From Mycobacterium sp. DL592 (GTDB taxonomy: Bacteria > Actinomycetota > Actinomycetes > Mycobacteriales > Mycobacteriaceae): DNA of 64,000 bases. Below the pieces are notes generated by a model that was given only the letters and a program-made list of their open reading frames with translations, searched no databases and was not told where the DNA came from. Positions 38,893-62,938 of the stretch are shown piece by piece. The stretch's first letter is position 1; each line of letters starts with the position of its first letter. The translations under genes were made by a program, and so were the position numbers. Location: positions 587,036-651,035 of the forward strand of contig NZ_CP050192.1 in NCBI RefSeq assembly GCF_011694515.1, read 5' to 3'.

Positions 38893-39744
38893 TCATCGGC
38901 CGGTGAAGTCCGGCGTCCGTTTCTCCCGGAACGCCGCCAGCCCCTCTTTGAAATCAGCTGTCCGGCAGGATAGTTCGAGGTCGAACAACTCCTGGTTCAT
39001 CGCCTCACCGAGGGCGGCGTGCTGGCTGCGGTTGATGGCCTGCTTGGCCAGGCCGATCGCCACGGTCGGTCCGGTTGCCAGCCTGTGCAGGAGTGCGGCC
39101 ACCGTCTCGTCGAGCTGTTCTTCGCCGACACTGCGATGGATCAGCCCCCACTCTGCTGCGGTGGCGCCGTCCACCTTCTCGCCGAGGAGCAGCATCTCCT
39201 TGGCGCGCGCCATCCCGACGAGCCGCGGCAGTAGCCAGGTGGCGCCCGAGTCGGGGGAGAACCCGCGTGCCACGAACGGTTCCCAGAACACCGCGTCGGA
39301 AGCGGCTACCGTGAAGTCGGCGGCCAGGGCGAGATTGCACCCCATGCCGGCGGCCCAGCCCCGCACCGAGCACACCACCGGCAGGTGCAGGGTGTGCACC
39401 AGGTCGATGATCCGGTGTGCGCTATGGGGCACGCCGCGCACCAGGTGACCGGGGCGCGGCCGCGGCCCGCTGTGGTGGGACCCGATCCAGTCGACGCCGG
39501 CGCAGAAGTCCGCACCTGCTCCGCGCAGGTGCACAGCGCGCAGTTCGTCGTCGCGGGCAGCGGCGGCGAGCATATCGACCAGCGTGTCGATCATGCTGTG
39601 GCTCAGTGAGTTTCGGTGACTCGGGCGGTCGAGCGTGATGTGCAGGACGGCGCCGTCCCGCGACGACGTCACGGCACCGGCGGCCGGCCCGGCCTGTTCG
39701 CCCACCGCGGATCCTGCCTTTTCGGATGCGTTACTGATAGCCAT
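38893..39744 (-). CDS. Enoyl-CoA hydratase/isomerase family protein, first gene of the leftward operon
   Basis: This 283-residue crotonase-fold protein has an unusual Ala/Gly-rich N-terminal extension of about 27 residues. The domain shows TLDRPSHRNSLS, GADFCAGVDWIGSH, CSVRGWAAGMGCNLALAAD and ARGFSPDSGATWLLPRLVG. The ATG at 39744-39742 lies inside a TACNGTA-type operator (39732-39750), so a bound repressor would cover the start site. It begins the operon of three crotonases and three ligases (39744 to 32894). Confidence 0.9.
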   Translation of the reverse strand: MAISNASEKAGSAVGEQAGPAAGAVTSSRDGAVLHITLDRPSHRNSLSHSMIDTLVDMLAAAARDDELRAVHLRGAGADFCAGVDWIGSHHSGPRPRPGHLVRGVPHSAHRIIDLVHTLHLPVVCSVRGWAAGMGCNLALAADFTVAASDAVFWEPFVARGFSPDSGATWLLPRLVGMARAKEMLLLGEKVDGATAAEWGLIHRSVGEEQLDETVAALLHRLATGPTVAIGLAKQAINRSQHAALGEAMNQELFDLELSCRTADFKEGLAAFREKRTPDFTGR

Positions 39745-39750
39745 ACAGTA
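39732..39750. promoter_or_regulatory. TACNGTA-type operator, site A (TACTGAT-N5-TACAGTA)
   Basis: This 19-bp inverted repeat matches TACNGTA-N5-TACNGTA with one half-site degenerate. It overlaps the start codon of the crotonase at 39744 and precedes the divergent thioesterase gene, so one bound dimer could repress both operons. Five other copies lie further right. Confidence 0.7.
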
Positions 39751-39752
39751 GT

Positions 39753-39772
39753 GCTATCTTGTAGAAGTTAGC
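39753..39772. promoter_or_regulatory. 20-bp inverted repeat GCTANCTTNTANAAGNTAGC
   Basis: The sequence GCTATCTTGTAGAAGTTAGC reads the same on both strands except at the four N positions. It lies two bases after operator A and 25 bases before the thioesterase start. It resembles a GntR-type operator and may be used by the GntR at 40449. Confidence 0.6.
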
Positions 39773-39797
39773 AAGGATGGGCCGGGTTAGGGGCTTC

Positions 39798-40448
39798 ATG
39801 GCGGACAGCGACGACCGGCGGTTCGGTGAACTACCGCTGCCGCAGACCGTCGCCGCGGCCGCTGCCCTGCGCCGCCTCACCGGCATGCTGCTTTCCCTCG
39901 AGCTTCCCCACCCGACGGTGGAGGCCATGCTGCACCAGTTCGCGCACTGGGAACGCGAACTCGAGCCTGCGCTGCCCGCCGACCTGCAGCCCCGAATGAC
40001 CCCCGACAGCGCCGACCGACGGCTGTATTTGCAGCACGCCTTCGACGTCGGGTCGTTCAATCCGGCTTTTCCCACTTACCGTTTCGATTCGATTGAGCCC
40101 ACCATCGCCTCCGGAACCGTGACGTTTCCCGTCGTCTTCGAGGGGCCACCGGGCCTGGTGCACGGCGGCGTCCTCGGGCTGTTCTTCGACTGCGTGATCC
40201 AGCATCACAGTTGTGCGGCCGGGATGGCCGGCAAGACCCGCTCGCTGTCGATCACCTACCGTCGGCCCACCCCGCTGAACACCAGACTGCGCTTCGACAT
40301 CGAGCGCTCCCACGACGAGCGTGGGATCTCCGCCACCGCACTCATCAGCCTCGACGGCGAGGTGTTGTGCACCGGGACGGCAGACACCGTCGCGCTGCCA
40401 CCGGAACGACTGGCGGCCAACAGATTCGGCCGCAGGCGGTCCGGCTAG
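39798..40448 (+). CDS. Hotdog-fold thioesterase (PaaI-like)
   Basis: This 216-residue protein has an N-terminal helical extension and a C-terminal hotdog domain. The active-site strand is GPPGLVHGGVLGLFFDCVIQHH (about 122-143), with the family's HGG motif, followed by TRSLSITYRRPTPLNT. It should release acids from CoA esters, relieving CoA trapping. The ATG at 39798 (MADSDDRRFG) follows TTAGGGG and is preferred over the ATG at 39777. It is first in the rightward operon with GntR, crotonase and thiolase. Confidence 0.83.
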   Translation: MADSDDRRFGELPLPQTVAAAAALRRLTGMLLSLELPHPTVEAMLHQFAHWERELEPALPADLQPRMTPDSADRRLYLQHAFDVGSFNPAFPTYRFDSIEPTIASGTVTFPVVFEGPPGLVHGGVLGLFFDCVIQHHSCAAGMAGKTRSLSITYRRPTPLNTRLRFDIERSHDERGISATALISLDGEVLCTGTADTVALPPERLAANRFGRRRSG

Positions 40449-41228
40449 ATGACCGCTGCCAGGATCCGTCAGCCGCGCGTCGCCGAGATCGTCGCCGCGC
40501 GGCTGCGTGACGACATCCTGTCCGGCCGCATCAAGGCCGGCGACATCCTGCCGTCCCAGGAGAACCTGTTCACCGAGTTCGGGGTGAGTCCCCCTGCCCT
40601 ACGGGAAGCGATCCACATCTTGGAGGCCGACGGACTGATCTCGGTGCGGCGCGGCAACATGGGCGGGGCGGTGGTGCATCTGCCGTCGGCCGAGCGCACC
40701 GCACACATGATCAGCATGGTGTTGCAGTCCCGCTCGGCCACGCCTGCCGACGTCGGCGGAGCACTGATGCACCTCGAGCCGATCTGCGCCGGCATGTGTG
40801 CCGCCCGCGCCGACCGGTCCACCGAGGTGGTGCCCTATCTGCAGGCCGAGATCGACCGTCAGGAACGGCTTCTCGACGAGCCGTCCCACTATGTGCGCAC
40901 TGCGCGGCGCTTCCACGAGGCGTTGGTGTCCCGGTGCGGCAACGAGCCAATGATCCTGTTGATCGGCTCGCTGGAGTTGATCTGGTCGGCGCACGAGTCG
41001 TCGGTCTGGGGCGACGACGGTGACCCGATGCGGCGCACGACCATGCGGGCGGCCCTGGATGACCACCGGCACCTGCTCGAGGCGATCGTCGACGGCGACG
41101 CCGACCGCGCGGTCCGGCTCGCCCAGGACCATCTGGCCGCAGCGCGGCGCCACACCCTCGCCTTCGGCCGGGACAAACCCATTGAGGCCAAGCTCATCTC
41201 CAGCGCAGAACCCAGGAGCCGACCATGA
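40449..41228 (+). CDS. GntR-family regulator, FCD (FadR-like) domain
   Basis: This 259-residue regulator has a winged helix at about 10-80 (LPSQENLFTEFGVSPPALREAIHILEADGLISVRRG) and an FCD domain after about 95. It differs from the GntR at 31538 in having the GNMGGAVVHLP beta-wing extension seen in FadR/PdhR types. Its ATG follows the thioesterase stop immediately. It overlaps the crotonase downstream by four bases. It probably controls its own operon, perhaps via the repeat at 39753. Confidence 0.88.
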   Translation: MTAARIRQPRVAEIVAARLRDDILSGRIKAGDILPSQENLFTEFGVSPPALREAIHILEADGLISVRRGNMGGAVVHLPSAERTAHMISMVLQSRSATPADVGGALMHLEPICAGMCAARADRSTEVVPYLQAEIDRQERLLDEPSHYVRTARRFHEALVSRCGNEPMILLIGSLELIWSAHESSVWGDDGDPMRRTTMRAALDDHRHLLEAIVDGDADRAVRLAQDHLAAARRHTLAFGRDKPIEAKLISSAEPRSRP

Positions 41229-42100
41229 CAGCCGACGACCGCGTCCTGTTCGAGGTGGATCGTGACGGGCGGATCGCCACGATCACGCTGAACAATCCCG
41301 CCCACCGCAACTCCTACGACGCGTCGATGCGCGAGGCCATGGCCCGTCACCTCGATACCGTGGCCGAGGACGACGACATCACCGTCGTCGTGCTGCGCGG
41401 GGCCGAGGGGGTGTTCTCCACCGGGGCCGACATGAACAACGCCTACGGCTGGTACGGCGAGGCCGACACAACCGCCGAGCAACGCAGGACCAGACCGAGC
41501 CAGCGGCGCCGACTCACAGTGGACCGTAAGACGTTCGGCTTCTACCACAACCTGATGGGTTTCCCGAAGGTCACCGTCGGCGAGATCGGCGGGTACGCGC
41601 TGGGCGGCGGTTTCGAGATGGCGCTGATGACCGACATCTCGGTGATCGCCAGGGACACCAGGATCGGGATGCCCGCCACCCGATTCCTGGGCCCCGCGCT
41701 GGGCAGTCTGCACATGTTCTTCCACCGGTTGGGTCCGGTACTGGCGCGGCGGCTGCTGCTCACCGGGGACATCATCACCGCCGCCGATGTCGAGCACCTC
41801 GGAGTCTTCACCGAAACCTGCGAGCCCGGCGCGGTGACCGCCAGGGCGCGGTACTGGGCGCAGAAGGCGGCGAAGATGCCCGCCGACGGCGTGGTGATCG
41901 CCAAGGAGGCGTTCCGCCTCGTCGAGCAGAGCCAGGCCTACCAGGGCGAGGAGGTGGCCAGCTACCTCTTCCACGCCTACGGCACCAACCTGCAGTTCGC
42001 GCCGGGGGAGTTCAATTTCGTCAAGACCCGCGCTCAGCACGGGACGAAGGCGGCGTTCCGCCTGCGTGACGAGCATTTCGACGTGCCGGAGCCGGACTGA
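41225..42100 (+). CDS. Enoyl-CoA hydratase/isomerase family protein
   Basis: This 291-residue crotonase-fold protein has TLNNPAHRNSYDA, GVFSTGADMNNAYGW and GEIGGYALGGGFEMALMTDISV. A long insert (about 78-100, Arg-rich) follows the first oxyanion strand. The region MPATRFLGPALGSLHMFFHRLG replaces the usual catalytic-Glu segment, so it may not be a simple hydratase. It overlaps the GntR gene by four bases and precedes a thiolase. Confidence 0.88.
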   Translation: MTADDRVLFEVDRDGRIATITLNNPAHRNSYDASMREAMARHLDTVAEDDDITVVVLRGAEGVFSTGADMNNAYGWYGEADTTAEQRRTRPSQRRRLTVDRKTFGFYHNLMGFPKVTVGEIGGYALGGGFEMALMTDISVIARDTRIGMPATRFLGPALGSLHMFFHRLGPVLARRLLLTGDIITAADVEHLGVFTETCEPGAVTARARYWAQKAAKMPADGVVIAKEAFRLVEQSQAYQGEEVASYLFHAYGTNLQFAPGEFNFVKTRAQHGTKAAFRLRDEHFDVPEPD

Positions 42101-42119
42101 GACCCCCCGCCAGCACCGA

Positions 42120-42138
42120 TACATTATCTGCTACTTTT
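42120..42138. promoter_or_regulatory. Degenerate TACNGTA-type element before the thiolase
   Basis: TACATTA-TCTGC-TACTTTT has the same 7-5-7 spacing as the operators but three mismatches to the half-sites. It lies 40 bases before the thiolase start. It may be a weak site or chance. Confidence 0.25.
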
Positions 42139-42177
42139 GTAACGTCGTTGACGCGTCCAAACCTGAGGTGGAGAACT

Positions 42178-43353
42178 ATGCCCGAACCAGTCATCGTCGG
42201 CGCTGTGCGGACCGCGATCGGCCGGTCCTTCAAGGGAACGCTGGTAAACACCCCGCCGGAGACTCTGATCACCGCGATCGTGCCCGAGGTCATCCGTCGT
42301 TCGGGTGTGGACCCGGCGGCCATCGACGATATGATCTTCGCTGAATCCCATTACGGCGGTGGCGATCTCGCACGTTACGCGGCCGACGCCACCGGTCTCC
42401 AGCATGTTCCCGGGCAGTCGGTGAACCGCCACTGCGCGGGTAGCCTGACCGCGATCGGCAACGCCTCGGCGCAGATCGGCTCCGGGATGGAGCGCGTGCT
42501 CATCGCCGGCGGTGTGCAGTCGCTGTCGATGACCCCGCTGGTGAGCCAGCGCATCATCGGCCCCGAGCTGAAGTTCGAGGAGCGCTGGATGCCGCCCACC
42601 CACGTCGAGACACCCGATGCACCCACCAAGGACATGTCGATCACGGTCGGCTGGAACACCGCTCAGGCGGTGGGCATCAGCCGCGAGGAGATGGACGCCT
42701 GGGCGGCCCGCTCTCACCAGCGCGCGATCGCCGCGATCGACGCCGGCAAGTTCCTCGACGAGATCCTGCCGCTGAAGGTTCAGCAGCTCGACGGGTCGGT
42801 GATCGACTTCAGTGTTGATGAGCAGCCGCGCCGCGACTCCACCGCCGAGAAGCTCGCCCAGCTCAAGGTGCTGCACCCCGAGATCGAGGGCTTCTCGATC
42901 ACCGCAGGCAACGCCAGCGGCACCAACGACGCCTGCGCCGCCGTGGCACTGGTCGACCGGGCGTACGCCGGGGCCGAGAACCTCGACATCCTGGCGACGG
43001 TCAAGGCCTGGGCGGCCGTTGGTGTCGCGCCCCGCGACACCGGACTGGGTGGCGTCGAGGTGATCGGCAAGGTGCTCGACCGGGCCGGGCTCACGCCGTC
43101 GGATGTTGCGCTGTGGGAGATCAACGAGGCCTTCGCGTCGGTGCCGATCGCGGCCTGCCGCAAGTACGGGCTCGACGAGGAGCTGGTGAACTTCTCCGGC
43201 AGCGGCTGCAGCCTGGGCCACCCCATCGCGGCATCCGGTGCCCGGATGATCACCACCCTGATCTACGAGTTGCGCCGTCGCGGCGGCGGTATCGGTGTCG
43301 CGGCGATGTGCGCCGGTGGCGGCCAGGGCGGCGCCGTCGTCATCGAGGTCTAG
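42178..43353 (+). CDS. Thiolase (acetyl-CoA acyltransferase)
   Basis: This 391-residue thiolase shows all catalytic motifs: the nucleophile Cys in VNRHCAGSLTAI (about residue 86), NEAFASVPI, GHPIAASGARM, and the second Cys in AMCAGGGQGG. It should cleave a 3-ketoacyl-CoA. The ATG at 42178 is set by GGTGGAGA upstream; an in-frame ATG at 42148 lacks a ribosome binding site. It ends the thioesterase-GntR-crotonase-thiolase operon, and a large hairpin follows. Confidence 0.93.
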   Translation: MPEPVIVGAVRTAIGRSFKGTLVNTPPETLITAIVPEVIRRSGVDPAAIDDMIFAESHYGGGDLARYAADATGLQHVPGQSVNRHCAGSLTAIGNASAQIGSGMERVLIAGGVQSLSMTPLVSQRIIGPELKFEERWMPPTHVETPDAPTKDMSITVGWNTAQAVGISREEMDAWAARSHQRAIAAIDAGKFLDEILPLKVQQLDGSVIDFSVDEQPRRDSTAEKLAQLKVLHPEIEGFSITAGNASGTNDACAAVALVDRAYAGAENLDILATVKAWAAVGVAPRDTGLGGVEVIGKVLDRAGLTPSDVALWEINEAFASVPIAACRKYGLDEELVNFSGSGCSLGHPIAASGARMITTLIYELRRRGGGIGVAAMCAGGGQGGAVVIEV

Positions 43354-44206: not shown

Positions 44207-44225
44207 TACTGTAAAGCCTATAGTA
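44207..44225. promoter_or_regulatory. TACNGTA-type operator, site B (TACTGTA-N5-TATAGTA)
   Basis: This 19-bp site lies between the TetR (start 44111) and SDR (start 44299) genes. A second overlapping inverted repeat, GTAAA-N-CCTA...TAGG-N-TTTAC, spans 44211-44232. It is the likely autoregulatory operator. Confidence 0.7.
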
Positions 44226-44298: not shown

Positions 44299-45096
44299 AT
44301 GGATCTCGGTTTGACGGACGCCACCGCCGTCGTAGTCGGCGGTGGCCGCGGCATGGGTCTGGCGGCAGCGCGATGCTTCGCCGACGATCGTGCGCGGGTG
44401 GCGTTGATCGGGCGCAATCGATCCGTACTCGACAGTGCCACAGCAGATTTGGCCGCACGGGGTAGCCCGGATGCGGTGGCCGTGGTGGCCGATGTCGCCG
44501 ACGAGTCGCAAGTCCGGTCGGCGTTTGCCGGTATCGGCAAGCGGTGGGGCGGCCAGCTCAACATCCTGGTCAATACCGTCGGGCCCGCCGTGCGGGGATC
44601 GTTCGAGCAACTCGGTGACGACCAGTGGCACACCGCGGTCGACGAGGGTGTAATGGGCATGGTGCGCTGCGTGCGGGCAGCGCTGCCGCTGCTGCGCAAC
44701 GCGCCGTGGGCGCGCATCGTGAACTTCTCCGCACAGTCCACGCAACGGCAGAGCCCGAATCTGGCCGCTTACACCGCCGCCAAAGCGATGGTCACCAGCA
44801 TCTCCAAGAATCTGTCGCTGTCGTTGGCTCCGGACGAGATTCTGGTCAACGTCGTCTCACCCGGTACCGTCGCGTCGGAGTCCCTGGTCGGCTGGGCCGA
44901 TTCGGTGGGGGTCGACGGCACCGACCCCTACGCGTTGATGTCGGCGATCGACGAACATTTCGGACATCCCGCGCATCTGCCGCGGGCCGGGCTGCCCGAG
45001 GAGATCGGGCCGGTGGTCGCCTTTCTCGCGTCGCGGCGCAACTCGTACATGACCGGCGCGAACATCAACGTCGACGGCGGCAGCGATTTCACCTGA
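44299..45096 (+). CDS. SDR-family oxidoreductase
   Basis: This 265-residue short-chain dehydrogenase has a variant cofactor motif GGGRGMG (13-19), the strand LNILVNTVGPAV in place of the usual NNAG, and active-site Tyr/Lys in YTAAKAM. The C-terminal TGANINVDGGSDFT closes the fold. It is alone in its transcript or reads into the crotonase operon after 94 bases. The upstream operator at 44207 puts it in the proposed regulon. Confidence 0.88.
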   Translation: MDLGLTDATAVVVGGGRGMGLAAARCFADDRARVALIGRNRSVLDSATADLAARGSPDAVAVVADVADESQVRSAFAGIGKRWGGQLNILVNTVGPAVRGSFEQLGDDQWHTAVDEGVMGMVRCVRAALPLLRNAPWARIVNFSAQSTQRQSPNLAAYTAAKAMVTSISKNLSLSLAPDEILVNVVSPGTVASESLVGWADSVGVDGTDPYALMSAIDEHFGHPAHLPRAGLPEEIGPVVAFLASRRNSYMTGANINVDGGSDFT

Positions 45097-45124: not shown

Positions 45125-45143
45125 TACCGATAGGTGTACAGTA
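45125..45143. promoter_or_regulatory. TACNGTA-type operator, site C (TACCGAT-N5-TACAGTA)
   Basis: This 19-bp element lies 48 bases before the start of the six-gene operon 45191-51963. One half-site is perfect and the other deviates at its last two bases. Confidence 0.65.
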
Positions 45144-45190
45144 TGGACATATCCGATGGTGGTGACTGATCTGGAGGTGTGCGCAGCCCG

Positions 45191-46051
45191 ATGAGTGGCC
45201 GTACTGATCTCGACTCCGATCCGTCATCGGAATCCGCTGTCGCCCAAAGTGATCCGGCGGTCCTCTACGAGGTCCGCGACAGCGGGGTGGCCGTGCTGAC
45301 CTTCAACCGTCCGGAACGGATGAATGGCTGGGGCGGCGGTCTGGCGGCCGGCTTCTACGCAGGCCTCGACCGGGCGGAGGCAGATCCGGAGGTCAGGGTG
45401 ATCGTGGTAACCGGCACAGGCCGCGCGTTCTGCGCCGGAGCCGACATGGGCGACCTGAACAGCATCGGTGCTGCCACCGTCAAGAGCGCCGGCGACACCG
45501 ACCTGTCCGCGCTGGTCGGCGAGCGGCACGCCTTCTTCGTGACCACGCTGCGCAAACCGGTCATCGCCGCCATCAACGGCGCCTGCGCCGGCATCGGGCT
45601 CACCCAGGCGTTGATGTGCGACGTCCGATTCGCCGCTGCCGGAGCCAAATTCACCACCTCGTTCGCCCGCCGCGGCCTGATCGCCGAGTACGCGATCTCG
45701 TGGATTCTGCCGCGGGTCATCGGCTGGGGTGCGGCACTGGACCTGCTGCTCAGTGGCCGGGTCTTCCTCGCCGAGGAGGCCGCCGAACTCGGCATGGTCA
45801 AAGAGGTCGTGGCACCTGAGGAGCTGCTGGCGCGGGCGATCGCCTACGCCGAGGACATCGCGGCCAACTGTGCGCCCAGCTCACTGGCGGTGATCAAGCA
45901 CCAGGTCTACGGCGATGCCCTGCGCGAACTCGCCCAGAGCAGCGAGCTGGCCGAAGGGCTCATGCACGACTCGATGCAGCGCCCCGATTTCATCGAGGGC
46001 ATCACCGCGTTCTTCGAGAAGCGCCCCCCCAACTTCCCGCCCCTGCCGTGA
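45191..46051 (+). CDS. Enoyl-CoA hydratase/isomerase family protein, first gene of the amidohydrolase operon
   Basis: This 286-residue crotonase-fold protein has a Ser/Asp-rich N-terminal tail of about 25 residues. It then shows TFNRPERMNGWGG, GRAFCAGADMGDLNS and AAINGACAGIGLTQALMCDVRF. The segment SFARRGLIAEYAISWILPRVIG carries a Glu at the position of the second catalytic Glu of hydratases. ATG 45191 follows GGAGGTG by eleven bases; GTG 45179 is an alternative. It leads an operon of crotonase, amidohydrolase, ligase, amidohydrolase and two acyl-CoA dehydrogenases. Confidence 0.9.
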   Translation: MSGRTDLDSDPSSESAVAQSDPAVLYEVRDSGVAVLTFNRPERMNGWGGGLAAGFYAGLDRAEADPEVRVIVVTGTGRAFCAGADMGDLNSIGAATVKSAGDTDLSALVGERHAFFVTTLRKPVIAAINGACAGIGLTQALMCDVRFAAAGAKFTTSFARRGLIAEYAISWILPRVIGWGAALDLLLSGRVFLAEEAAELGMVKEVVAPEELLARAIAYAEDIAANCAPSSLAVIKHQVYGDALRELAQSSELAEGLMHDSMQRPDFIEGITAFFEKRPPNFPPLP

Positions 46052-46067
46052 TCGGAGGACGACGCAG

Positions 46068-47276
46068 ATGACCCTGGACTACAAAGCGATCGACGTCGAC
46101 AACCACTACTACGAACCACTGGATGCCTTCACCCGCCACCTGGACAAGAAGTTCAAGCGCCGCGGCGTCCAGATGCTCAGCGACGGCAAGCGCACCCAGG
46201 CCGTCATCGGCGACCGGGTCAATCACTTCATCCCCAACCCCACCTTCGACCCCATCATCGAGCCGGGCTGCCTGGACCTGCTGTTCCGCGGTGAAATCCC
46301 CGACGGCGTCGACCCCGCCTCGTTGATGAAGGTCGACCGCCTCGGCGATCACCCCGAGTACCAGAACCGCGACGCCCGGCTGAGGTTCCTCGACAAGCAG
46401 AACCTCGAGACGGTCTTCATGCTGCCGACCTTCGCCTGCGGCGTCGAGGAGGCGCTCAAGACCGACATCGAAGCCACCATGGCCTCGCTGCACGCGTTCA
46501 ATCTGTGGCTCGACGAGGACTGGGGTTTCGACCGGCCCGACCACCGGTTCCTGTCGGCGCCCATCATCTCGCTGGCCGACCCCGACGCGGCCGCGGCCGA
46601 GGTCGACTTCGTCCTGGCGCGCGGCGCCAAGATCGTCTGTGTCCGGCCCGCCCCGGTGCCCGGCGTGGTCAAGCCCCGTTCGCTCGGCGACCCGCTGCAC
46701 GACCCGGTGTGGGCCCGGCTGGCCGAGGCGGGTGTGCCGGTGATCTTCCATCTGTCCGACAGCGGCTATCTGGCCATCTCTGCATTGTGGGGCGGCAAGG
46801 CCACTTTCGAGGGGTTCGGCAAACGGGACCCGCTCGACAACGTGCTGCTCGACGACCGTGCCATCCACGACGCGATGGCGTCGATGATCGTGCACCAGGT
46901 CTTCACCCGTCACCCCACGCTGAAGGTGGCCAGCATCGAGAACGGCTCCTACTTCGTCTACCGCTTGATCAAGCGGCTCAAGAAAGCCGCCAACACCGCG
47001 CCGTACCACTTCACCGAAGATCCGGTCGAGCAGCTGCGTGCCAACGTCTGGATCGCCCCGTACTACGAGGACGACGTGAAGCTGCTGGCCGAGACGATCG
47101 GTGTCGACAAGATTCTGTTCGGCTCCGACTGGCCGCACGGCGAAGGGCTCGCCGACCCGATGTCCTTCACCGCCGACATCCCGCAGTTCCCCGAGTTCAG
47201 TGCCGCCGACACCCGGAAGGTGATGCGCGACAACGCCTTGACCCTGCTGGGCCTTTCGGTGTCGTCGGCGGCCTGA
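46068..47276 (+). CDS. Amidohydrolase family 2 (ACMSD-like) metal-dependent hydrolase
   Basis: This 402-residue TIM-barrel protein of the amidohydrolase-2 family includes ACMSD and related decarboxylases or hydrolases. Metal-site features are VDNHYYEP (in place of the usual DxHxH), FHLSDSG, and the late LFGSDWPHGEG with the conserved Asp. The atypical DNHYYEP motif is shared by many mycobacterial members of unknown function. GGAGG at 46054 sets the start. Beside a CoA ligase it may act on a cyclic beta-keto or amide-like intermediate; this is inference. Confidence 0.85.
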   Translation: MTLDYKAIDVDNHYYEPLDAFTRHLDKKFKRRGVQMLSDGKRTQAVIGDRVNHFIPNPTFDPIIEPGCLDLLFRGEIPDGVDPASLMKVDRLGDHPEYQNRDARLRFLDKQNLETVFMLPTFACGVEEALKTDIEATMASLHAFNLWLDEDWGFDRPDHRFLSAPIISLADPDAAAAEVDFVLARGAKIVCVRPAPVPGVVKPRSLGDPLHDPVWARLAEAGVPVIFHLSDSGYLAISALWGGKATFEGFGKRDPLDNVLLDDRAIHDAMASMIVHQVFTRHPTLKVASIENGSYFVYRLIKRLKKAANTAPYHFTEDPVEQLRANVWIAPYYEDDVKLLAETIGVDKILFGSDWPHGEGLADPMSFTADIPQFPEFSAADTRKVMRDNALTLLGLSVSSAA

Positions 47277-47279
47277 GAC

Positions 47280-48890
47280 ATGCCGGAGTGGACGATCGGT
47301 GCGGTCCTCGACGCCGTCGCCGAGGCTGTGCCCGACCGTCCGATGACGGTGTGCGGCGAGCGCGTCACCACCTACGCCGAAGCGTCCGACCGCACCCGCC
47401 GGCTGGCCAACTTCCTGATCGCACAGGGCCTGGGTGCCCACTGCGAGCGCGGCGATCTCGAGAACTGGGAGTGCGGACAGGACCGGGTCGCACTCGTCAT
47501 GCACAACGACCGCTACCCCGAGGCGGTCATCGGCTGCCTGAAGGCGCGCACCGTGCCGGTCAACGTCAACTACCACTACACGCCCCGCGAGGTCGCCGAA
47601 CTTCTCGACTACGTCAAACCGACGGCCGTCATCTACCACCGCAGCATGGCGCCACGCTTTGCCGACGTCCTCGCCTCCTCGGGTGCCACGTTGTTGATCG
47701 GCGTCGACGACGGTGGTGACACCCCGGATCTTCCGGGTGCGGTGACGCTGGAAGAGGCTCTGGCACAGGGAGATAGCAACCGCGAGGCCGCGCCGTCACC
47801 GGACGACGTGTTGATGATCTGCACCGGCGGCACCACCGGACGGCCCAAAGGCGTGATGTGGCGCCAGGGCGACACCTACACCGTGTCGATGAACGGGGCC
47901 GACCACGAGTCGGTCGCCGAGATCCACGCCAAGCTCGGCCCGCCGGGCCCGCCGTGGTTCGCGGTGTCACCGCTGATGCATGCCGCCGGGATCTGGACGG
48001 CCTTCGCCGGGGTGCTCAACGGGCAGACCGTGGTGCTCTACGACTCGGCCAAGTTCGACCCACAGCGCGTGCTGGCCACCGCTCAGCGGGAGAAGGTCGG
48101 CATGATGACGATGGTCGGTGACGCCTACGCCGGGCCACTGGTCGCCGAACTCGGCAGCGGCAGCTACGACCTGTCGTCGCTGTACGCACTGGCCACCGGT
48201 GGCGCCGCCACCAACCCGAAACATCAACGGGCGCTGCTGGACCTGCTGCCCAACATCATCCTGATCAACGGGTACGGCTCCTCGGAGACCGGCAACGTCG
48301 GATTCGGCCGCAGCATGCGCGGTGACGAGAAGGACACCTTCGAACTGCGCGACGGCGCCCTGGTCCTCGCCGACGACTACAGCCGGTTCCTGCGGGCCGG
48401 TGATGACCAGGTCGGCTGGGTGGCCCGCACCGGCCGAATCCCGTTGGGCTACTTCGACGATGCCGACGCTACCAAGAAGACGTTCCCGGTGGTCGACGGG
48501 CAGCGTGTCGTGATCTCCGGTGACCGTGGGTCGCTTGCCGTCGACGGCACGCTGCGACTGTTCGGCCGGGACTCGCTGGTGGTCAACACCGGCGGCGAGA
48601 AGGTGTTCGTCGAAGAGGTCGAGGAGGTCCTGCGGGCACACCCCGGGATCGCCGACGCGCTGGTGGTGGGGCGCCCCAGTGAGCGGTGGGGTCAGGAAGT
48701 GGTGGCGCTGGTGGCCTTCCGTGACCGCGACGTCGACCACAGCGACCTGCACGCACACTGCACCGCCGAGTTGGCCCGGTACAAGTCGCCCAAGGAGTTC
48801 ATCGTGGTCGAACAGGTCAAGCGGCTCGGTAACGGCAAGGCTGACTATCGGTGGGCGAAAGCCGTTGCCGCACAGCAGGGAGTGCGCTGA
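47280..48890 (+). CDS. Acyl-CoA synthetase
   Basis: This 536-residue adenylate-forming ligase has the P-loop CTGGTTGRPKGV at about 181-192 and GYGSSETGNVG (A5). RDSLVVNTGGEKVF is the A8 hinge and GNGKADYRW holds the A10 lysine. It is longer than the three tandem ligases at 32894-37278 and belongs to a separate branch. It begins three bases after the amidohydrolase stop and ends one base before the second amidohydrolase, so its substrate is probably set by those enzymes. Confidence 0.91.
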   Translation: MPEWTIGAVLDAVAEAVPDRPMTVCGERVTTYAEASDRTRRLANFLIAQGLGAHCERGDLENWECGQDRVALVMHNDRYPEAVIGCLKARTVPVNVNYHYTPREVAELLDYVKPTAVIYHRSMAPRFADVLASSGATLLIGVDDGGDTPDLPGAVTLEEALAQGDSNREAAPSPDDVLMICTGGTTGRPKGVMWRQGDTYTVSMNGADHESVAEIHAKLGPPGPPWFAVSPLMHAAGIWTAFAGVLNGQTVVLYDSAKFDPQRVLATAQREKVGMMTMVGDAYAGPLVAELGSGSYDLSSLYALATGGAATNPKHQRALLDLLPNIILINGYGSSETGNVGFGRSMRGDEKDTFELRDGALVLADDYSRFLRAGDDQVGWVARTGRIPLGYFDDADATKKTFPVVDGQRVVISGDRGSLAVDGTLRLFGRDSLVVNTGGEKVFVEEVEEVLRAHPGIADALVVGRPSERWGQEVVALVAFRDRDVDHSDLHAHCTAELARYKSPKEFIVVEQVKRLGNGKADYRWAKAVAAQQGVR

Positions 48891-48891
48891 C

Positions 48892-54324: not shown

Positions 54325-54355
54325 GCCAGCGCCTCCTCAGTGGTTCTGAATAAAC

Positions 54356-54388: not shown

Positions 54389-55903
54389 GTGGATTCGATC
54401 GAACTGGGTCGCAGGGCTGCGGAGTGTGCCGAATCCCGGATGCTCGTCGACGGCGACCTCGTGCCGGCGGCCTCCGGTGCCGAGTTCGTCAACGAGAGCC
54501 CGGCCACCGGCCTGCCGCTGGGGACGACGGCAGCCGCCGGTGCTGTCGATATGGATCGGGCGATCAACGCGGCCCGTCACGCGTTCGACGAGTCGGACTG
54601 GTCCACCAACCGTTCGCTGCGCAAACGCGTGCTCGAACAGTTGCAGGGTGCGATCGAGGCCGAAAAAGACGCTCTGCGTGAGGAACTCGTCGCTGAGGCC
54701 GGATGCCCGATGATGACCACACTGTCGGCTCAGCTGGATTGGCCGCTCGCCGAAGCGCTGCGCTATCCGGCCGGCCTGATCGACGACTTCGAGTGGCAGC
54801 GCACGCTCGAGGGCGGCGGCCTGTTCGGAGACCGCAACGTGCGCACCGTCGTCAAGGAACCGGTCGGGGTGGTCGCCGCGATCACGCCGTCGAACTTCCC
54901 GATCGAGGTCATCCTCAACAAACTGGGACCCGCACTGGCGGCGGGAAACACCGTGGTCCTCAAGCCCGACCCGCACACCCCGTGGAACGCCACCCGGCTG
55001 GGCCGGCTGATCGCCGAGCGCACCGACATCCCGGCGGGGGTGGTCAACGTCGTCCCGACACCGTCCAATGAGGTCGCCGGGCTGTTGGGCACCGACCCGC
55101 GGGTGGACATGATCTCGTTCACCGGGTCGACGTCGGTGGGCAAGCTGCTCATGCGCCAGGGCGCGGACACGATGAAACGGATGTTCCTCGAACTCGGCGG
55201 TAAGTCGGTGGCGATCGTGCTCGACGACGCGAACCCGGCTGCCATCGTTCCCACTGCGGTCGGAGTGTGTGTGCATGCCGGACAGGCCTGTGCCGCGACC
55301 ACCCGCATGCTGATCCACCGCTCCCTGTACGAGCAGGCGGTGGCTGATATCACCGCGGCGTATTCCGTTGTCCCGGTGGGTGACCCGGTGCGGGAGGATG
55401 TTCTGGTCGGTCCGCTCATCAGTTCCGCCCAGAAACAGCGGGTGCTGACGGCCATCGCCGCCGCGCGTGCCGAGGGTGCCGAGATCACCACCGGCGGCGG
55501 CACGCCGGAGAATCTGCCCGCCGAACTCGCAGGCGGGCACTTCGTTGCACCCACGGTCATCACCGGTGTGGACAACAGCGCCGCGATCGCCCAGCAGGAG
55601 GTCTTCGGCCCGGTGCTGATCGTCATCCCGTTCGACGACGACGACCACGCGGTGCGCATCGCCAATGAAAGCCCCTACGGCCTGGCCGGGGCCGTGATGT
55701 CACGGTCGATCGAGCGCGGGATGGACATCGCGCACCGCATCCGGACCGGGTCCTTCGGCGTCAACGGTGGCATGTTCTACGGGGCCGACGCGCCCTTCGG
55801 CGGCTACAAGAACAGCGGTGTGGGACGGCAGTGCGGGATCGAGGGGTTCCAGCAGTACCTGGAAACCAAGACGATCGGCTGCCGGGTACCGAGGCCGGTT
55901 TAG
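54389..55903 (+). CDS. Aldehyde dehydrogenase
   Basis: This 504-residue NAD(P)-dependent enzyme oxidises an aldehyde to its acid. The general base Glu lies in MFLELGGKS, the nucleophile Cys in HAGQACAATTRML, and the cofactor-binding segment is ISFTGSTSVGK. The KNSGVGRQCG and GAVMSRSIERG regions are intact. The GTG at 54389 follows CAGGAGG by five bases. In pathway terms it would supply the acid for one of the CoA ligases. It is divergent from the CoA-transferase and controlled by site D. Confidence 0.92.
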   Translation: MDSIELGRRAAECAESRMLVDGDLVPAASGAEFVNESPATGLPLGTTAAAGAVDMDRAINAARHAFDESDWSTNRSLRKRVLEQLQGAIEAEKDALREELVAEAGCPMMTTLSAQLDWPLAEALRYPAGLIDDFEWQRTLEGGGLFGDRNVRTVVKEPVGVVAAITPSNFPIEVILNKLGPALAAGNTVVLKPDPHTPWNATRLGRLIAERTDIPAGVVNVVPTPSNEVAGLLGTDPRVDMISFTGSTSVGKLLMRQGADTMKRMFLELGGKSVAIVLDDANPAAIVPTAVGVCVHAGQACAATTRMLIHRSLYEQAVADITAAYSVVPVGDPVREDVLVGPLISSAQKQRVLTAIAAARAEGAEITTGGGTPENLPAELAGGHFVAPTVITGVDNSAAIAQQEVFGPVLIVIPFDDDDHAVRIANESPYGLAGAVMSRSIERGMDIAHRIRTGSFGVNGGMFYGADAPFGGYKNSGVGRQCGIEGFQQYLETKTIGCRVPRPV

Positions 55904-57139: not shown

Positions 57140-57158
57140 TACTGTAAACCATACGGTA
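57140..57158. promoter_or_regulatory. TACNGTA-type operator, site E (TACTGTA-N5-TACGGTA)
   Basis: Both half-sites match TACNGTA exactly. The element lies 41 bases upstream of the P450 start and about 90 bases before the divergent SnoaL-like gene. A further TTACAGT half-site occurs near 57210. Confidence 0.75.
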
Positions 57159-57250: not shown

Positions 57251-57700
57251 GTGACAACGACGGCCGACGAACTCGAAGCCATCCGGCAGCTCAAGGCCCG
57301 CTACTGCCGGTATCTGGACACCAAGGACGTCGAGGGCTGGCGTGCGGTGTTCTGCGCCGACCTCACCGTGCTGCTCGACGGCGCCGTCTCCACGGGTGGC
57401 AACGACCCGCAGACGGGTCCGCCGATCGAGGGCGTGGACAACTTCGTCCCGATGGTGCTGGCAACGCTGGACGGGGTGGCCACCGTCCACCACTGCCACA
57501 CGCCGGAGCTCACTCTCGATTCGCCGACGACCGCGACCGGCATCTGGGCGATGGAGGATATGTTGTTCTTTCCCGACGGCAACCAGCTGCACGGGGCGGG
57601 CCACTACCACGAAACCTACGAGAAGCGTGACGGCGCTTGGCGAATCAAGTCGCTGCATCTCACCCGAACGCTATTGCGTTTCTCGACTGCTGACGGCTGA
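57251..57700 (+). CDS. SnoaL-like (NTF2-fold) protein
   Basis: This 149-residue protein has the cone-shaped NTF2/SnoaL fold, with an N-terminal helix (DELEAIRQLKARYCRYLDTKD) and strands including HHCHTPELTLDS and YHETYEKRDGAWRIKSLHLTR. Such proteins act as small isomerases, hydratases or hydroxylation accessories; steroid isomerase is one relative. The GTG at 57251 follows GAAGGG. It is six bases before the Baeyer-Villiger-type monooxygenase and probably works on its substrate or product. Confidence 0.85.
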   Translation: MTTTADELEAIRQLKARYCRYLDTKDVEGWRAVFCADLTVLLDGAVSTGGNDPQTGPPIEGVDNFVPMVLATLDGVATVHHCHTPELTLDSPTTATGIWAMEDMLFFPDGNQLHGAGHYHETYEKRDGAWRIKSLHLTRTLLRFSTADG

Positions 57701-57706
57701 GAGTCG

Positions 57707-59338
57707 ATGACCCCCACCGCCGAAGCAGGGCGCTTCGATGTGATCGTCATCGGGGCGGGGTTCTCCGGGCTCTACATGCTGCACCGGCTGCGTGAGCTCG
57801 GCCTGCACGCCCGGGTGCTGGAGAAGGCGCACAATGTCGGCGGCACATGGCTTTTCAACCGTTACCCGGGCGCGCGCTGCGATATCGAGAGCATCGAGTA
57901 CTCCTACAGCTTCTCCGAGGAGATCCAGCAGGAGTGGGTGTGGACGGAGACCATGCCTGCCCAGCCGGAGATCGAGGCGTATCTGAACTTCGTCGCCGAC
58001 CGGCTCGACCTGCGCACCGACATCAGCTTCGGCGCCGACGTGGTGGCGATGACATTCGATGAGGACGCCGCCGAGTGGCTGCTGCAGACCGAATCCGGGC
58101 AGCGTTACGTCGCCCCGTTCGTCGTGGCCGCCTCGGGCATCCTGTCGGTTCCGCTGGAGCCGGACATTCCCGGCATCGAGACGTTCACCGGAACCTCGCT
58201 GTTCACCAGCCGCTGGCCCCGCGACGGCGTCGACCTCACCGGCCGACGCGTCGGTGTGGTCGGCACCGGATCGACCGGGGTGCAACTGATTCCGGTGATC
58301 GCCCCGACGGTGGAGCATCTCTACGTCTTCCAGCGATCACCGGCCTTCACGCTGCCGTGGTCGGTGCGCGCGCTCGAACCCGGCGAACTCGACGAGCTGA
58401 AGTCGCGCTACGGCGAGATCCGCCGAGCGCAGCGTGAACATCCGGTGGGTGCGGCGCGGCTGAGCGCCTTCTCGGTGCTCATCGACATGCTCAGCTGTCC
58501 ACCGATCAGCTCGGCCACCGCGGAGGAGAAGCGCCGCGCCGTCGAGGTGCGCGGCATCGTCGGTGCACTCAGCTGGGGTGACATCTTCTTCGACATCGAC
58601 GCCAACCGGATGGCCACCGAGCTCTACGGCCAGGCGATCGCGCGGATCGTGTCGGATCCCGCGACGGCGGCCGCGCTGGTGCCCAGCCATCCCTTCGGGT
58701 GTAAGCGCCCGATCATCGACCAGGGCTACTACGAGACGTTCAATCGGGACAACGTCACCCTCGTCGACCTGCGCACAGGCCCGCTGCGGACCGTCACACC
58801 GACCGGGATCGACACCGAGAACGGCCATTTCGACCTTGATGTGATCATCTATGCCACCGGCTTCGACGCGATGACCGGAGCGCTGACGCGCATCGAGGTC
58901 CGCGGCCACGACGGGGTGTTGCTGCGTGATGTCTGGGCGCAGGACGGGCCGGTGGCCTACCTGGGGCTGGCGGTGGCCGGATTCCCCAACCTGTTCATCG
59001 TGCAGGCCCCGGGCAGCCCGTCGGCCGCGACGAACTTCGTCACCGCCATGGAGCAGCACGTGGAGTGGATCGGGGACTGCATCACGTATCTGCGCGACGG
59101 TGGGTTTCGCACCATCGAGGCCCTGCCGGATGCCCAGCGGGAGTGGATCGAGCACACCACTTCCCTTGTCGCACCGACAGTCCTGGTTCACCCGAGCTGC
59201 AACTCCTGGTACAACGGCGCGAACGTGCGCGGCAAGAAGAGGATGTACATGGGATACACGGCGGGCATCCCGGAGTACCGCAGACGGTGCGACGAGGTGG
59301 CCGAGCGCGGCTATGCCGGTTTCGTCCTGGGCCCGTAG
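57707..59338 (+). CDS. Baeyer-Villiger-type flavin monooxygenase with a non-canonical fingerprint
   Basis: This 543-residue class B flavoprotein resembles cyclohexanone monooxygenase. FAD motif GAGFSG is at 16-21, the BVMO segment GGTWLFNRYPGARCDIES at 45-62, NADP motif GTGSTG at 186-191, and YATGFDAMTG is near 382-391. The BVMO fingerprint FxGxxxHxxxW(P/D) appears as FTGTSLFTSRWP at 160-171, with Phe166 replacing the conserved His. It may thus have altered oxygenation or reduced coupling. Its 3' end overlaps the convergent TetR gene by 28 bases. Confidence 0.9.
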   Translation: MTPTAEAGRFDVIVIGAGFSGLYMLHRLRELGLHARVLEKAHNVGGTWLFNRYPGARCDIESIEYSYSFSEEIQQEWVWTETMPAQPEIEAYLNFVADRLDLRTDISFGADVVAMTFDEDAAEWLLQTESGQRYVAPFVVAASGILSVPLEPDIPGIETFTGTSLFTSRWPRDGVDLTGRRVGVVGTGSTGVQLIPVIAPTVEHLYVFQRSPAFTLPWSVRALEPGELDELKSRYGEIRRAQREHPVGAARLSAFSVLIDMLSCPPISSATAEEKRRAVEVRGIVGALSWGDIFFDIDANRMATELYGQAIARIVSDPATAAALVPSHPFGCKRPIIDQGYYETFNRDNVTLVDLRTGPLRTVTPTGIDTENGHFDLDVIIYATGFDAMTGALTRIEVRGHDGVLLRDVWAQDGPVAYLGLAVAGFPNLFIVQAPGSPSAATNFVTAMEQHVEWIGDCITYLRDGGFRTIEALPDAQREWIEHTTSLVAPTVLVHPSCNSWYNGANVRGKKRMYMGYTAGIPEYRRRCDEVAERGYAGFVLGP

Positions 59339-60362: not shown

Positions 60363-61402
60363 CTGACCAACCTTTGGACGAACTCGGCTATTACCTGCTG
60401 GCCGGTGCCGGCGGCGAAGGTCCTGCCACCCTGATGGACGAGGCCCGCCGCGGTGAGGAACTCGGCTTCGGAACGGCATTCATCTCCGAGCGCTGGAACG
60501 TCAAAGAGGCCTCGTCGCTGGTGGGCGCCGCGTGCGCGGTGACCACCCGGATGCAGATCGCCACGGCCGCCACCAATCACAACACCCGCCATCCGCTGAT
60601 CACCGGGTCGTGGGCCACCACCATGCATCGACTGTCCGGTGGCCGGTTCACCCTGGGAATCGGACGCGGAATCGGCGCCATCTATTCGGCGTTCGGCATT
60701 CCGGCGGTCACCACCGCGCAGATGGAGGACTTCGCCCAGGTGATGCGCCGGTTGTGGCAGGGCGAGATCATCTTCAACCACGACGGCCCGCTCGGGAAGT
60801 ACCAGATCCTGTTCCTCGATCCGGACTTCCGGGAGGACATCCGGCTGGCGCTGGTGGCGTTCGGGCCGAACACCCTCAAGCTCGGTGGACGCGCCTTCGA
60901 CGACGTCATCCTGCACACCTACTTCACCCCGGAAACCCTGCAGCGCTGCGTCAAGACTGTCAAGGACGCCGCCGAGCAGGCCGGTCGCGACCCGGACAGC
61001 GTGCGCGTGTGGTCCTGCTTCGCCACCGTCGGTGACCACCTGCCCGAAGAGCTGCGGCTGAAGAAGACGGTGGCCCGCCTGGCCACCTACCTTCAGGGCT
61101 ACGGGGATCTTCTGGTCACCACCAACGGCTGGGATCCCGCTGTGCTGGAACGGTTCCGGGCCGACTCGGTGGTGCAGTCCATCGGTGGCGGCATCGACCA
61201 CAAGGGCACCGCCGAGCAGATCGAGCACATCGCGACGCTGATTCCGGACGAATGGCTGGAGCCGTCGGCCACCGGATCCGCACAACAATGCGTCGACCGG
61301 ATCCGCAAGGAATTCGACTATGGTGCCGACGCGGTGATCCTGCACGGCGCCACCCCCGACGAGCTCGAACCGGTCGTGCAGACCTACCGCGCTACGGTGT
61401 GA
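60359..61402 (+). CDS. LLM-class F420-dependent oxidoreductase
   Basis: This 347-residue bacterial-luciferase-fold (TIM barrel) enzyme probably uses F420 or FMN. Typical segments are EELGFGTAFISERWNVKEA (about 27-45), TAATNHNTRHPLITGSWATTMHRLSGGRFTLGIGRG and the C-terminal IRKEFDYGADAVILHG. The GTG start at 60359 overlaps the SnoaL-like stop, and AAGGAGAG lies about six bases upstream. It may reduce or oxidise an unsaturated ketone or alcohol in the pathway. It overlaps the convergent carboxyltransferase by 11 bases. Confidence 0.9.
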   Translation: MTDQPLDELGYYLLAGAGGEGPATLMDEARRGEELGFGTAFISERWNVKEASSLVGAACAVTTRMQIATAATNHNTRHPLITGSWATTMHRLSGGRFTLGIGRGIGAIYSAFGIPAVTTAQMEDFAQVMRRLWQGEIIFNHDGPLGKYQILFLDPDFREDIRLALVAFGPNTLKLGGRAFDDVILHTYFTPETLQRCVKTVKDAAEQAGRDPDSVRVWSCFATVGDHLPEELRLKKTVARLATYLQGYGDLLVTTNGWDPAVLERFRADSVVQSIGGGIDHKGTAEQIEHIATLIPDEWLEPSATGSAQQCVDRIRKEFDYGADAVILHGATPDELEPVVQTYRATV

Positions 61403-62888
61403 TCACGGTGCGCGACACCGGTTCTGCGACCTGCTGGCGGCTGTAGACACCGCGCTGCAAGGCCAGCAGTAGGGCATTGCGGGTTTCTTCCGGCGAGATC
61501 AGTTCGTCGAACCCGAGGTTGCTCGCCGAGCGGTAGGACGCCTCGAGTTCCATGTTCTTGAGAATCTCGGTGACGTCGTCGTCGGCGTGCGACGCCCGGC
61601 TCAGCGCCGCCGCGCTCATCGCCCCCATGGTGGCTCCCGGGAAGGCGAAGGTCGCCACCTGGCTGTCAAAACCCAACAGCGACATCACCATCGAGCCGAA
61701 ACCGAACGCCTTGCGCAGCGTCACATGAAGTTTGATCGTCGTGGCCGCCGTCTGCGCGGCGAACATCCGCGCGCCGGACCGCAGCACACCGCTGCGCTCG
61801 GACGCACTGCCGGGCAGCATGCCGGGATTGTCGGCCAGGAAGACGATCGGCAGGTGGAACGAGTCGGCCACCATGATGAAATGTGCTGCCTTGTCGGCGG
61901 CATCGGCGTCGATCGACCCCGCGAGCTTCGTCGGCTGGTTGGCCACGACGGCCACCGGATAGCCGCCCAGGTGCGCCAGCGCGCAGATGATCGCCGGGCC
62001 GAACTTTGGCTGCACCTCGAGCCAGTCCGGCTCGTCGAACACCACGTCGAGAACGGTGCGCATGTCGTAGATGCGCCGGTTGTCCCGGGAGATGATGTCC
62101 AGCAACTCCGGGGTGGGGCGCAGTTCCGCCGAGTCGTCGTAGAGCCGGGTCGGGGGATAGGCCCATGCGCTGGAGGGGAAATAGGACAGGTAGCGGCGCA
62201 CGTCGTCGAGCACCGCTTCGTCGGTCTCGGCGAAGTTGTGGATCACGCCGCTGCGCAGGGCGACATCGGGGCCGCCGAGGTCCTCCTTCGAGATGTCCTC
62301 TCCGGTGGACTCTTTCACCACCGGCGGACCCGCGGTGAAGATGGCGCCCTGACTGCTCATGATGCTGAAGTCGCACACCGGCGCCACCAGTGCGCCGTGG
62401 CCGGCCGACGGGCCGAGCACAGCGGAGACGGTCGGCACCTTGCCTGAACACTGCGCCTGGGCGATCAGGTCGGTGGGGCTGCGGCCATAGTGCTCACCAC
62501 TGGGCCGAAAACCGGCCCCTTCCAACAGCATTACCAGCGGCACCTTGTTGCGCAAAGCGAGTTCGGCCAGCCGGTAGCGCTTCGCGTTGCCGCCGGGGCC
62601 GATCGTGCCCGCCAGGGTGGTGAAATCCTCGGCCCCGATCATCACCGGTGTGCCGCCGACGCGTCCGGCCCCGGCGACGATACCGTCGGCGGCGATCTCG
62701 CCTCCGACCAGGGTGCCGAACTCCTGGAAGGTGCCGGGGTCGAGAAGGTGGTCGATACGGGCCCGCGCGTCGAGTTTGCCTTTGGCGTGGTGCTTGGCCA
62801 GCCGTTCGTCGCCGCCCATCGCGTGGGCATTCTGACGCCGCCGACTCAGGTCGTGCAGTGTGTCCTGCCAGTCCTGCGCGTTGCCCAT
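61392..62888 (-). CDS. Acyl-CoA carboxylase carboxyltransferase (beta) subunit
   Basis: This 498-residue enzyme has two crotonase-like halves. The N-terminal carboxyltransferase domain contains LDARARIDHLLDPGTFQEFG and GIVAGAGRVGG. The C-terminal domain has VVANQPTKLAGSIDADAADKAAHF and LADNPGMLPGSASER. It transfers a carboxyl from biotin to an acyl-CoA. No biotin-carboxylase or biotin-carrier (alpha) gene is in the window, so it depends on an alpha subunit elsewhere. Being in a branched-acid cluster, it may act on a methyl-branched enoyl-CoA, as in geranyl- or methylcrotonyl-CoA carboxylases. Confidence 0.9.
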   Translation of the reverse strand: MGNAQDWQDTLHDLSRRRQNAHAMGGDERLAKHHAKGKLDARARIDHLLDPGTFQEFGTLVGGEIAADGIVAGAGRVGGTPVMIGAEDFTTLAGTIGPGGNAKRYRLAELALRNKVPLVMLLEGAGFRPSGEHYGRSPTDLIAQAQCSGKVPTVSAVLGPSAGHGALVAPVCDFSIMSSQGAIFTAGPPVVKESTGEDISKEDLGGPDVALRSGVIHNFAETDEAVLDDVRRYLSYFPSSAWAYPPTRLYDDSAELRPTPELLDIISRDNRRIYDMRTVLDVVFDEPDWLEVQPKFGPAIICALAHLGGYPVAVVANQPTKLAGSIDADAADKAAHFIMVADSFHLPIVFLADNPGMLPGSASERSGVLRSGARMFAAQTAATTIKLHVTLRKAFGFGSMVMSLLGFDSQVATFAFPGATMGAMSAAALSRASHADDDVTEILKNMELEASYRSASNLGFDELISPEETRNALLLALQRGVYSRQQVAEPVSRTVITP

Positions 62889-62919
62889 CGATGTGTCCTA
62901 ACCGTGCGCGCGTTGACCA

Positions 62920-62938
62920 TACTGAATTGCTTACTGTA
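62920..62938. promoter_or_regulatory. TACNGTA-type operator, site F (TACTGAA-N5-TACTGTA)
   Basis: This 19-bp element lies between the divergent carboxyltransferase (62888) and LLM (62951) starts. One half-site is exact and the other has one mismatch. Confidence 0.68.

Follow-up and report, generated by a model that had tools for sequence, protein, structure and literature searches.

A conserved 19-bp palindrome points to a probable TetR-family regulon in a catabolic gene cluster of Mycobacterium sp. DL592

Combining motif searches, whole-genome scans and comparison with related mycobacteria, our work here addresses six 19-bp inverted repeats in a 64,000-nucleotide stretch of the Mycobacterium sp. 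DL592 genome (contig NZ_CP050192.1, positions 587,036 to 651,035; hereafter the window), which accompany the genes of a catabolic cluster. Taken together, the sequence comparisons make it very probable that these six sites are the operators of a single regulon governed by the TetR-family protein encoded at 43434-44111, here called TetR1. The initial annotation of the window had proposed such a one-TetR system, and the proposal is supported in that the sites are concentrated in the cluster and conserved together with the TetR gene. A conserved site lies upstream of the regulator's own gene and the same site recurs at several catabolic promoters, an arrangement that suggests TetR1 is probably an autoregulated repressor of the cluster.

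The initial annotation had located all six repeats correctly on the plus strand, each with a spacer of 5 bp (Table 1), although the pattern it read from them, TACNGTA-N5-TACNGTA, is matched exactly only at 57140, with one mismatch at 44207, 54356 and 62920 and with two at 39732 and 45125. Its placement of the sites mostly between divergent genes holds, five of the six being so placed and site C (45125) lying between the co-directional short-chain dehydrogenase/reductase (SDR) and hydratase genes. At up to two mismatches the window contains eight matches to this pattern against 0.15 expected (none of 100 shuffles reached eight), the two additional ones being at 26981 and at 54344, where the match overlaps the site at 54356. 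A matrix built from 69 sites at up to one mismatch in the clusters of 12 relatives, with the DL592 genome itself excluded, revises the consensus to TACTGTAA-N3-TTACAGTA, in which A and T emerged at motif positions 8 and 12 though both were missing from the search pattern. Applied to 84 kb of the DL592 genome, the relatives' matrix ranks exactly the six sites as its top six (20.9-30.4 bits), followed by the overlapping match at 54344 with 13.3 bits and then by a drop to 4.9 bits.

The same concentration is seen across the whole genome, a single contig of 5.10 Mb, where the refined pattern TACYGWA-N5-TWCRGTA at up to one mismatch finds nine places, six of them the sites of the window, and its backward counterpart finds three. 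The six fall within 0.45% of the genome (binomial p 7e-13, for a pattern fitted to these very sites), and because of that fitting the relatives' matrix and the conservation described below constitute the more independent support. The other three places comprise one likely distal operator, considered further on, and two weak matches, one at 4385360 inside an open reading frame (ORF; 11.3 bits) and one at G000:C1:4474130-4474148 (L157 1501-1519) in a gap between ORFs, with one mismatch and 14.1 bits. A looser pattern gives 25 places compared with 41 for its control; seven of the 25 are in the cluster, and outside it only the place at 1708982 exceeds 20 bits (24.2), the runner-up scoring 15.5. 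The whole-genome search consisted of mismatch-pattern searches whose matches were scored afterwards by the matrix, so that a site far from every pattern would escape it. The loose scan also came upon G000:C1:2501110-2501196, where AACTGAATCAGCTCCAGTT occurs twice at 34-bp spacing together with a third related copy, apparently an unrelated tandem repeat. That the six sites are a product of chance or base composition is scarcely credible to us: two of the nine genome places are weak, but the excess over shuffled sequence in the window, the gap in scores between 13.3 and 4.9 bits and the footprint across 47 upstream regions (below) all speak against it.

Conservation was assessed in a genus sample of 148 genomes, with TetR1 or a relative or paralogue scored at E <= 1e-20. 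By this measure 118 genomes are TetR-positive, five of which (G050, G055, G088, G092 and G147) carry only a relative, whose best E does not fall below 1e-57. At up to one mismatch the median number of sites per genome is 7 in the TetR-positive group versus 1 in the 30 TetR-less genomes (p 1.7e-13), and at least five sites are present in 92 of the 118 versus 2 of the 30, in tests that take genomes to be independent, an assumption that related species do not satisfy. Because matches to the backward-pattern control outnumber true matches in TetR-less genomes (median 4 versus 1; in TetR-positive genomes 5 versus 7), the comparison was made between the two groups and not between each group and its own control; the excess over control is larger in the TetR-positive genomes (p 1.3e-6).

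At the level of single loci, the best 80 of 283 TetR1 loci all come from Mycobacterium or Mycolicibacterium, the closest being those of Mycobacterium sp. HKST-UBA41 and M26 (90-91% identity). In 78 of these 80, a site at up to two mismatches is found no farther than 450 bp upstream of TetR1, 19 of them at up to one mismatch; the two loci without it are L079 and L097, the contig of the latter ending there. In an alignment of 47 non-redundant upstream regions, that of DL592 included, this site is the best-conserved 19-mer in the 330 bp upstream of the gene, with a value of 0.94 against a mean of 0.55 and 0.88 for the coding start. Versions of site C, selected by their left half, occur at 67 places in the TetR1 loci; a count in which the far half of this hydratase site was never -10-like was forced by the site selection and was not used.

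In 12 relatives mapped gene by gene, the cluster genes recur, mostly at 59-93% identity; their order and spacing shift, and the sites largely follow the genes. Read from this map at up to two mismatches, site B is kept in all 12 relatives, site C in 11 of the 12, and site D in 10 of the 11 having the CoA-transferase or aldehyde dehydrogenase gene. Site E is kept in all 10 relatives with a cytochrome P450 of at least 73% identity and site F in all 10 whose stretch reaches both of its genes, with identical letters in six. Site A is the least conserved, being found in 7 of the 11 relatives that have its crotonase. None of the 69 relatives' sites lies inside a homologous gene body, compared with 51% of random positions; for 64 of them a cluster homologue begins no more than 300 bp downstream, as it does for 16% of random positions. 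Across the 148 genomes, 80 TetR1 loci and 12 mapped clusters, the element is thus conserved together with the TetR.

TetR1 has both the N-terminal helix-turn-helix and the all-helical ligand-binding C-terminal domain of the TetR family. Its sequence matches TetR_N (PF00440, E 4.8e-12, residues 23-69, above cut-off) and TetR_C_1 (PF02909, E 4.3e-9), and its predicted model has nine helices (pLDDT 81.4, pTM 0.73), the 50 best matches listed among PDB folds all being tetracycline repressors or engineered repressors. Across 28 aligned sequences, TetR1 among them, the recognition helix, GVTSIYWYFRKKDDLL, hardly varies. Outside the genus, nine genomes among 298 of the order encode a TetR at E <= 1e-30, and six of these were examined: in five (G381, G167, G415, G224 and G308) a TetR of 40-64% identity has a site of at least 17 bits no more than 5 kb away. 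In G224 that site stands beside the TetR1 relative, and the fetched 20 kb yielded no further cluster gene. Conversely, among the 30 TetR-less genomes checked, G067 and G137 carry homologues of the acyl-CoA dehydrogenase gene (E <= 1e-110), and the 120 kb around these homologues contain a single 17.2-bit site, every other score being 5 bits or less.

The sites might instead be bound by another regulator, and three candidates are present in or near the cluster: a GntR/FCD regulator at 40449-41228, in the plus-strand operon beside site A and absent from the initial annotation's list; a second TetR-family protein at 59311-59934; and, in relatives, a TetR1 paralogue near the P450 gene. We consider this unlikely. 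The GntR gene is found at E <= 1e-60 in 53 of the 148 genus genomes, all 53 being TetR-positive and site-rich (median 8), but it is not found at this threshold in the other 95, and the 65 of these that carry the TetR keep a median of 5 sites; the sites thus do not vanish with the GntR regulator, which disfavours it as the binder. The second TetR is not found in 7 of the 12 relatives' clusters that keep the sites, although in G082 the fetched stretch ends beside the Baeyer-Villiger monooxygenase gene. The paralogue, with its almost identical recognition helix, could share the operator; the DL592 genome, however, has no second TetR1-like match at E <= 1e-20, and the G224 site beside a TetR1 relative likewise favours TetR1 itself. 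In the three relatives in which it was mapped, the paralogue is about 49-56% identical to TetR1 and is encoded directly downstream of the P450 gene (for example at L113 3633-4310), and in such species it may act at the same operators.

Several observations weigh against assigning the sites to TetR1 as one regulon. Fewer than five sites are present in 26 of the 118 TetR-positive genomes, and two TetR-less genomes, G075 and G115, both of 3.3 Mb, are site-rich with 11 and 6 sites, yet their backward controls give 9 and 7; the TetR-less G067 retains its 17.2-bit site. Site A is not found at up to two mismatches in 4 of the 11 crotonase-bearing relatives, including the close G004 and G136. No site lies near the 38% identical TetR of G368, nor in the 20-60 kb surrounding the 45-48% identical TetRs of G088, G092, G050 and G147, and since the recognition helix of these four is almost that of TetR1, it is not by itself a predictor of the site. 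The relatives' matrix was seeded with a pattern taken from the sites of the window itself, and related genomes do not provide independent evidence. Finally, because the TetR and the cluster travel together, their co-occurrence alone does not single out TetR1.

The position of the sites relative to the genes suggests how such an operator might work. The right half of all six sites reads TANNNT, a form of the mycobacterial -10 box, with a plus-strand start 12-92 nt downstream, and the left half reads TANNNT on the other strand at three of the six. Such letters would also be expected if the repeat were a promoter element, two facing -10 boxes for a sigma factor, rather than an operator. We hold this to be very unlikely, however. 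Conservation covers both halves of the 19-bp palindrome, extending to outer positions dispensable for a -10 box and to left halves that depart from TANNNT. The sites also track one TetR across genera, and their restriction to a single cluster is not what a sigma factor would be expected to produce. We favour operators of TetR1, a dimer of which would bind the palindrome TACTGTAA-N3-TTACAGTA. Because the right half-sites have the form of a -10 box just ahead of plus-strand starts, the bound dimer would cover the -10 region and shut out RNA polymerase, in both directions at most of the sites and at its own gene as well. By analogy with KstR-type regulators, a CoA-thioester or other pathway intermediate would probably lift this repression.

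A further feature of the sites is seen at 54344-54374 of the window and upstream of TetR1 in many relatives' loci (L045-L111), where three half-sites follow one another in 12-bp phase, an arrangement in which the central half-site might be shared by two dimers or contested between them. A general rule by which each operator has a third half-site 12 bp away was considered and rejected, the flanks being nearly uninformative over the 69 sites, although site D and many TetR1 promoters do have one.

The extent of the regulon proposed in the initial annotation, six local units, is retained and enlarged by one probable distal member. About 1.06 Mb from the cluster, an exact operator match at G000:C1:1708982-1709000 (L150 1501-1519) scores 24.2 bits and lies at the end of a PfkB-family (ribokinase-like) gene, with the likely start of an enoyl-CoA hydratase gene some 20 bp downstream. 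In our reading the hydratase starts at L150 1479, just downstream of the site, though its longest ORF (658-1659) contains the site. On these sequence grounds we predict that the site is likely a seventh operator. A chance match in a coding end was considered and rejected, since 7 of 29 other loci keep AACSGTA-N5-TTCAGTW there, with varying spacers and 12.5-24.2 bits; the comparison covered the 30 best loci, the DL592 locus included, of 141 matching genomes, and the remaining 22 of the 29 score at most 11.3 bits. The seven keepers are close relatives (78-80% identical DNA there), and part of this conservation is therefore shared descent. Other species have distal sites of their own: of six that were fetched, family scans tied three to genes, placing them beside P450 genes (L199, L201) and a carboxyltransferase gene (L200), and the one in L204 falls inside the longest ORF of an amidohydrolase gene, towards its 5' end.

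Table 1. Candidate operators and genes of the cluster, in window coordinates; bits are scores with the relatives' matrix
Feature	Coordinates	Strand	Sequence or match	Context
Candidate operator A	39732..39750	+	TACTGATAGCCATACAGTA	Between crotonases (-) and 39777-43353 operon (+); 26.5 bits
Candidate operator B	44207..44225	+	TACTGTAAAGCCTATAGTA	Between TetR gene and SDR; 27.9 bits
Candidate operator C	45125..45143	+	TACCGATAGGTGTACAGTA	Upstream of hydratase/amidohydrolase/ligase/acyl-CoA dehydrogenase operon; 20.9 bits
Weak site overlapping D	54344..54362	+	2 mismatches	12-bp shift; 13.3 bits
Candidate operator D	54356..54374	+	TACTGTAACAATTACAGTT	Between CoA-transferase (-) and aldehyde dehydrogenase (+); 30.4 bits
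Candidate operator E	57140..57158	+	TACTGTAAACCATACGGTA	Between P450 (-) and SnoaL/Baeyer-Villiger monooxygenase (+); 28.9 bits
Candidate operator F	62920..62938	+	TACTGAATTGCTTACTGTA	Between carboxyltransferase (-) and LLM oxidoreductase (+); 27.0 bits
Acyl-CoA ligase	35881..37497	-	AMP-binding	Farther along minus strand from site A; putative operon member
Two crotonase-family genes (38069-38896, 38893-39744)	38069..39744	-	PF00378	
Operon: 223-aa protein, GntR/FCD regulator (40449-41228), crotonase (41225-42100), thiolase (42178-43353)	39777..43353	+		
TetR1, TetR-family regulator, 225 aa	43434..44111	-		Proposed repressor
SDR	44299..45096	+	PF13561	
Operon: enoyl-CoA hydratase, amidohydrolase_2, acyl-CoA ligase, amidohydrolase_2, two acyl-CoA dehydrogenase-like genes	45179..51963	+		
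Class III CoA-transferase; thiolase-like/lipid-transfer protein	53098..54324; 51960..53111	-	Matches of thiolase-like/lipid-transfer protein below cut-offs	
Aldehyde dehydrogenase	54389..55903	+	PF00171; TIGR04284 below cut-off	
Cytochrome P450	55900..57126	-	PF00067; P450 structure matches	
SnoaL-like protein and Baeyer-Villiger monooxygenase	57251..59338	+	PF13577; phenylacetone monooxygenase 1w4x, E 4e-159	
Carboxyltransferase, acyl-CoA carboxylase beta type	61392..62888	-	PF01039	
F420-type LLM oxidoreductase	62951..63979	+	TIGR03617 above cut-off	Scanned from 62648; start placed at ATG 62951

Some details of the cluster genes (Table 1) qualify their boundaries and assignments. The longest ORF for the minus-strand crotonase has its first 13 bases inside site A, and the true start of this gene may be a later GTG at 39705 or 39672. 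The 223-aa protein at 39777-40448 had no match in the family scans, and the SDR had none at 1e-30 among PDB sequences. In the gap upstream of the second TetR gene, CAACTTAGTTG was noticed by eye and may be an operator of that gene's own. The first amidohydrolase, at 45915-47276, very strongly matches 4dzi, a solved protein without a functional name (E 1.4e-226); since this match begins at residue 53, the real start is probably near 46071. The second amidohydrolase of the same operon has one weak match among PDB sequences.

The families represented suggest a degradative route: the monooxygenase is near phenylacetone and steroid monooxygenases, and it is accompanied by the P450, aldehyde dehydrogenase, SDR, ligases, thiolases, a class III CoA-transferase, a carboxyltransferase and an F420-type LLM protein, together with four crotonase-family and two acyl-CoA dehydrogenase-like genes. 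We envisage a route for an oxygenated or cyclic compound, in which the P450, the Baeyer-Villiger monooxygenase and dehydrogenases would act first, followed by CoA ligation and steps resembling beta-oxidation. Distant matches of the first amidohydrolase include DitZ and PtmU3, names associated with diterpenoid metabolism, and our guess is that the substrate is cyclic or terpenoid-like. The accessible parts of the work on a piperine amidohydrolase cluster (PMC12753220) and on alkane use in Dietzia (PMC12472514) have no bearing on this cluster.

Of the 148 genus genomes, roughly three quarters carry the TetR, and a similar share the cluster acyl-CoA dehydrogenase gene. A wider proposition, which we put forward tentatively and think somewhat less likely than its converse, is that most of the genus Mycobacterium, and some genera related to it, share an undescribed regulon. 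In it a single TetR subfamily, whose recognition helix is almost invariant and which in many species has a second copy within the regulon beside the P450 gene, would act through one 19-bp operator doubling as a -10 box on mobile P450, Baeyer-Villiger monooxygenase and CoA-thioester genes and on distal members, for a cyclic ketone or terpenoid-like substrate not yet linked to these bacteria. For a catabolic pathway the analysis supplies an operator, a regulator and a set of genes that can be put to the test; the remaining regulon members can be sought with the operator species by species, and TetR1 could act as a sensor when screening for the pathway substrate.

In the literature searched, from which subscription papers were mostly out of reach, we found no description of this motif, including among the titles listed for TACTGTAA or TTACAGTA in combination with TetR. 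Motifs predicted for mycobacterial TetR proteins by Balhana et al. 2015 (PMC4482099) are similarly intergenic palindromes beside divergently oriented TetR genes; in the part of that work available to us they go by M. tuberculosis gene number, and identity with the present motif could not be checked. Tetracycline repressors are the closest solved relatives of TetR1 by sequence profile (5mru, E 2.3e-20; engineered repressor 9dt4, E 2e-21) and by fold (6rxb, TMt 0.76), with the TetR_C_1 domain in common. Identity in the fold matches listed is, however, 20-27%, no efflux gene is found among the annotated cluster genes, and the proposed operator is 19 bp long, compared with the 15-bp palindrome given for the model TetR in the accessible text of PMC4482099.

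Closer in its way of working is KstR2, although the PDB sequence matches listed for TetR1 include no chain named KstR or KstR2. According to the portion of the KstR2 study at hand (PMC3068626), that regulator recognizes the 14-bp motif AnCAAGnnCTTGnT in three promoter regions, controlling some 15 genes for cholesterol use; most motif-to-start distances are 22-82 bp, an operator lies upstream of its own gene, and the motif is conserved among actinomycetes. As far as that account goes, the system proposed here resembles it in these last three respects and would share with it a TetR-type repressor within a catabolic cluster and palindromic operators in divergent promoters near the repressor's own gene. 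In contrast, the sites described here do not follow AnCAAGnnCTTGnT but the 19-bp consensus given above, with other letters, other genes and six promoter regions plus one distal site. This is very probably a real, conserved and mostly local TetR regulon that would work much as KstR2 does, with a regulator and an operator of its own.

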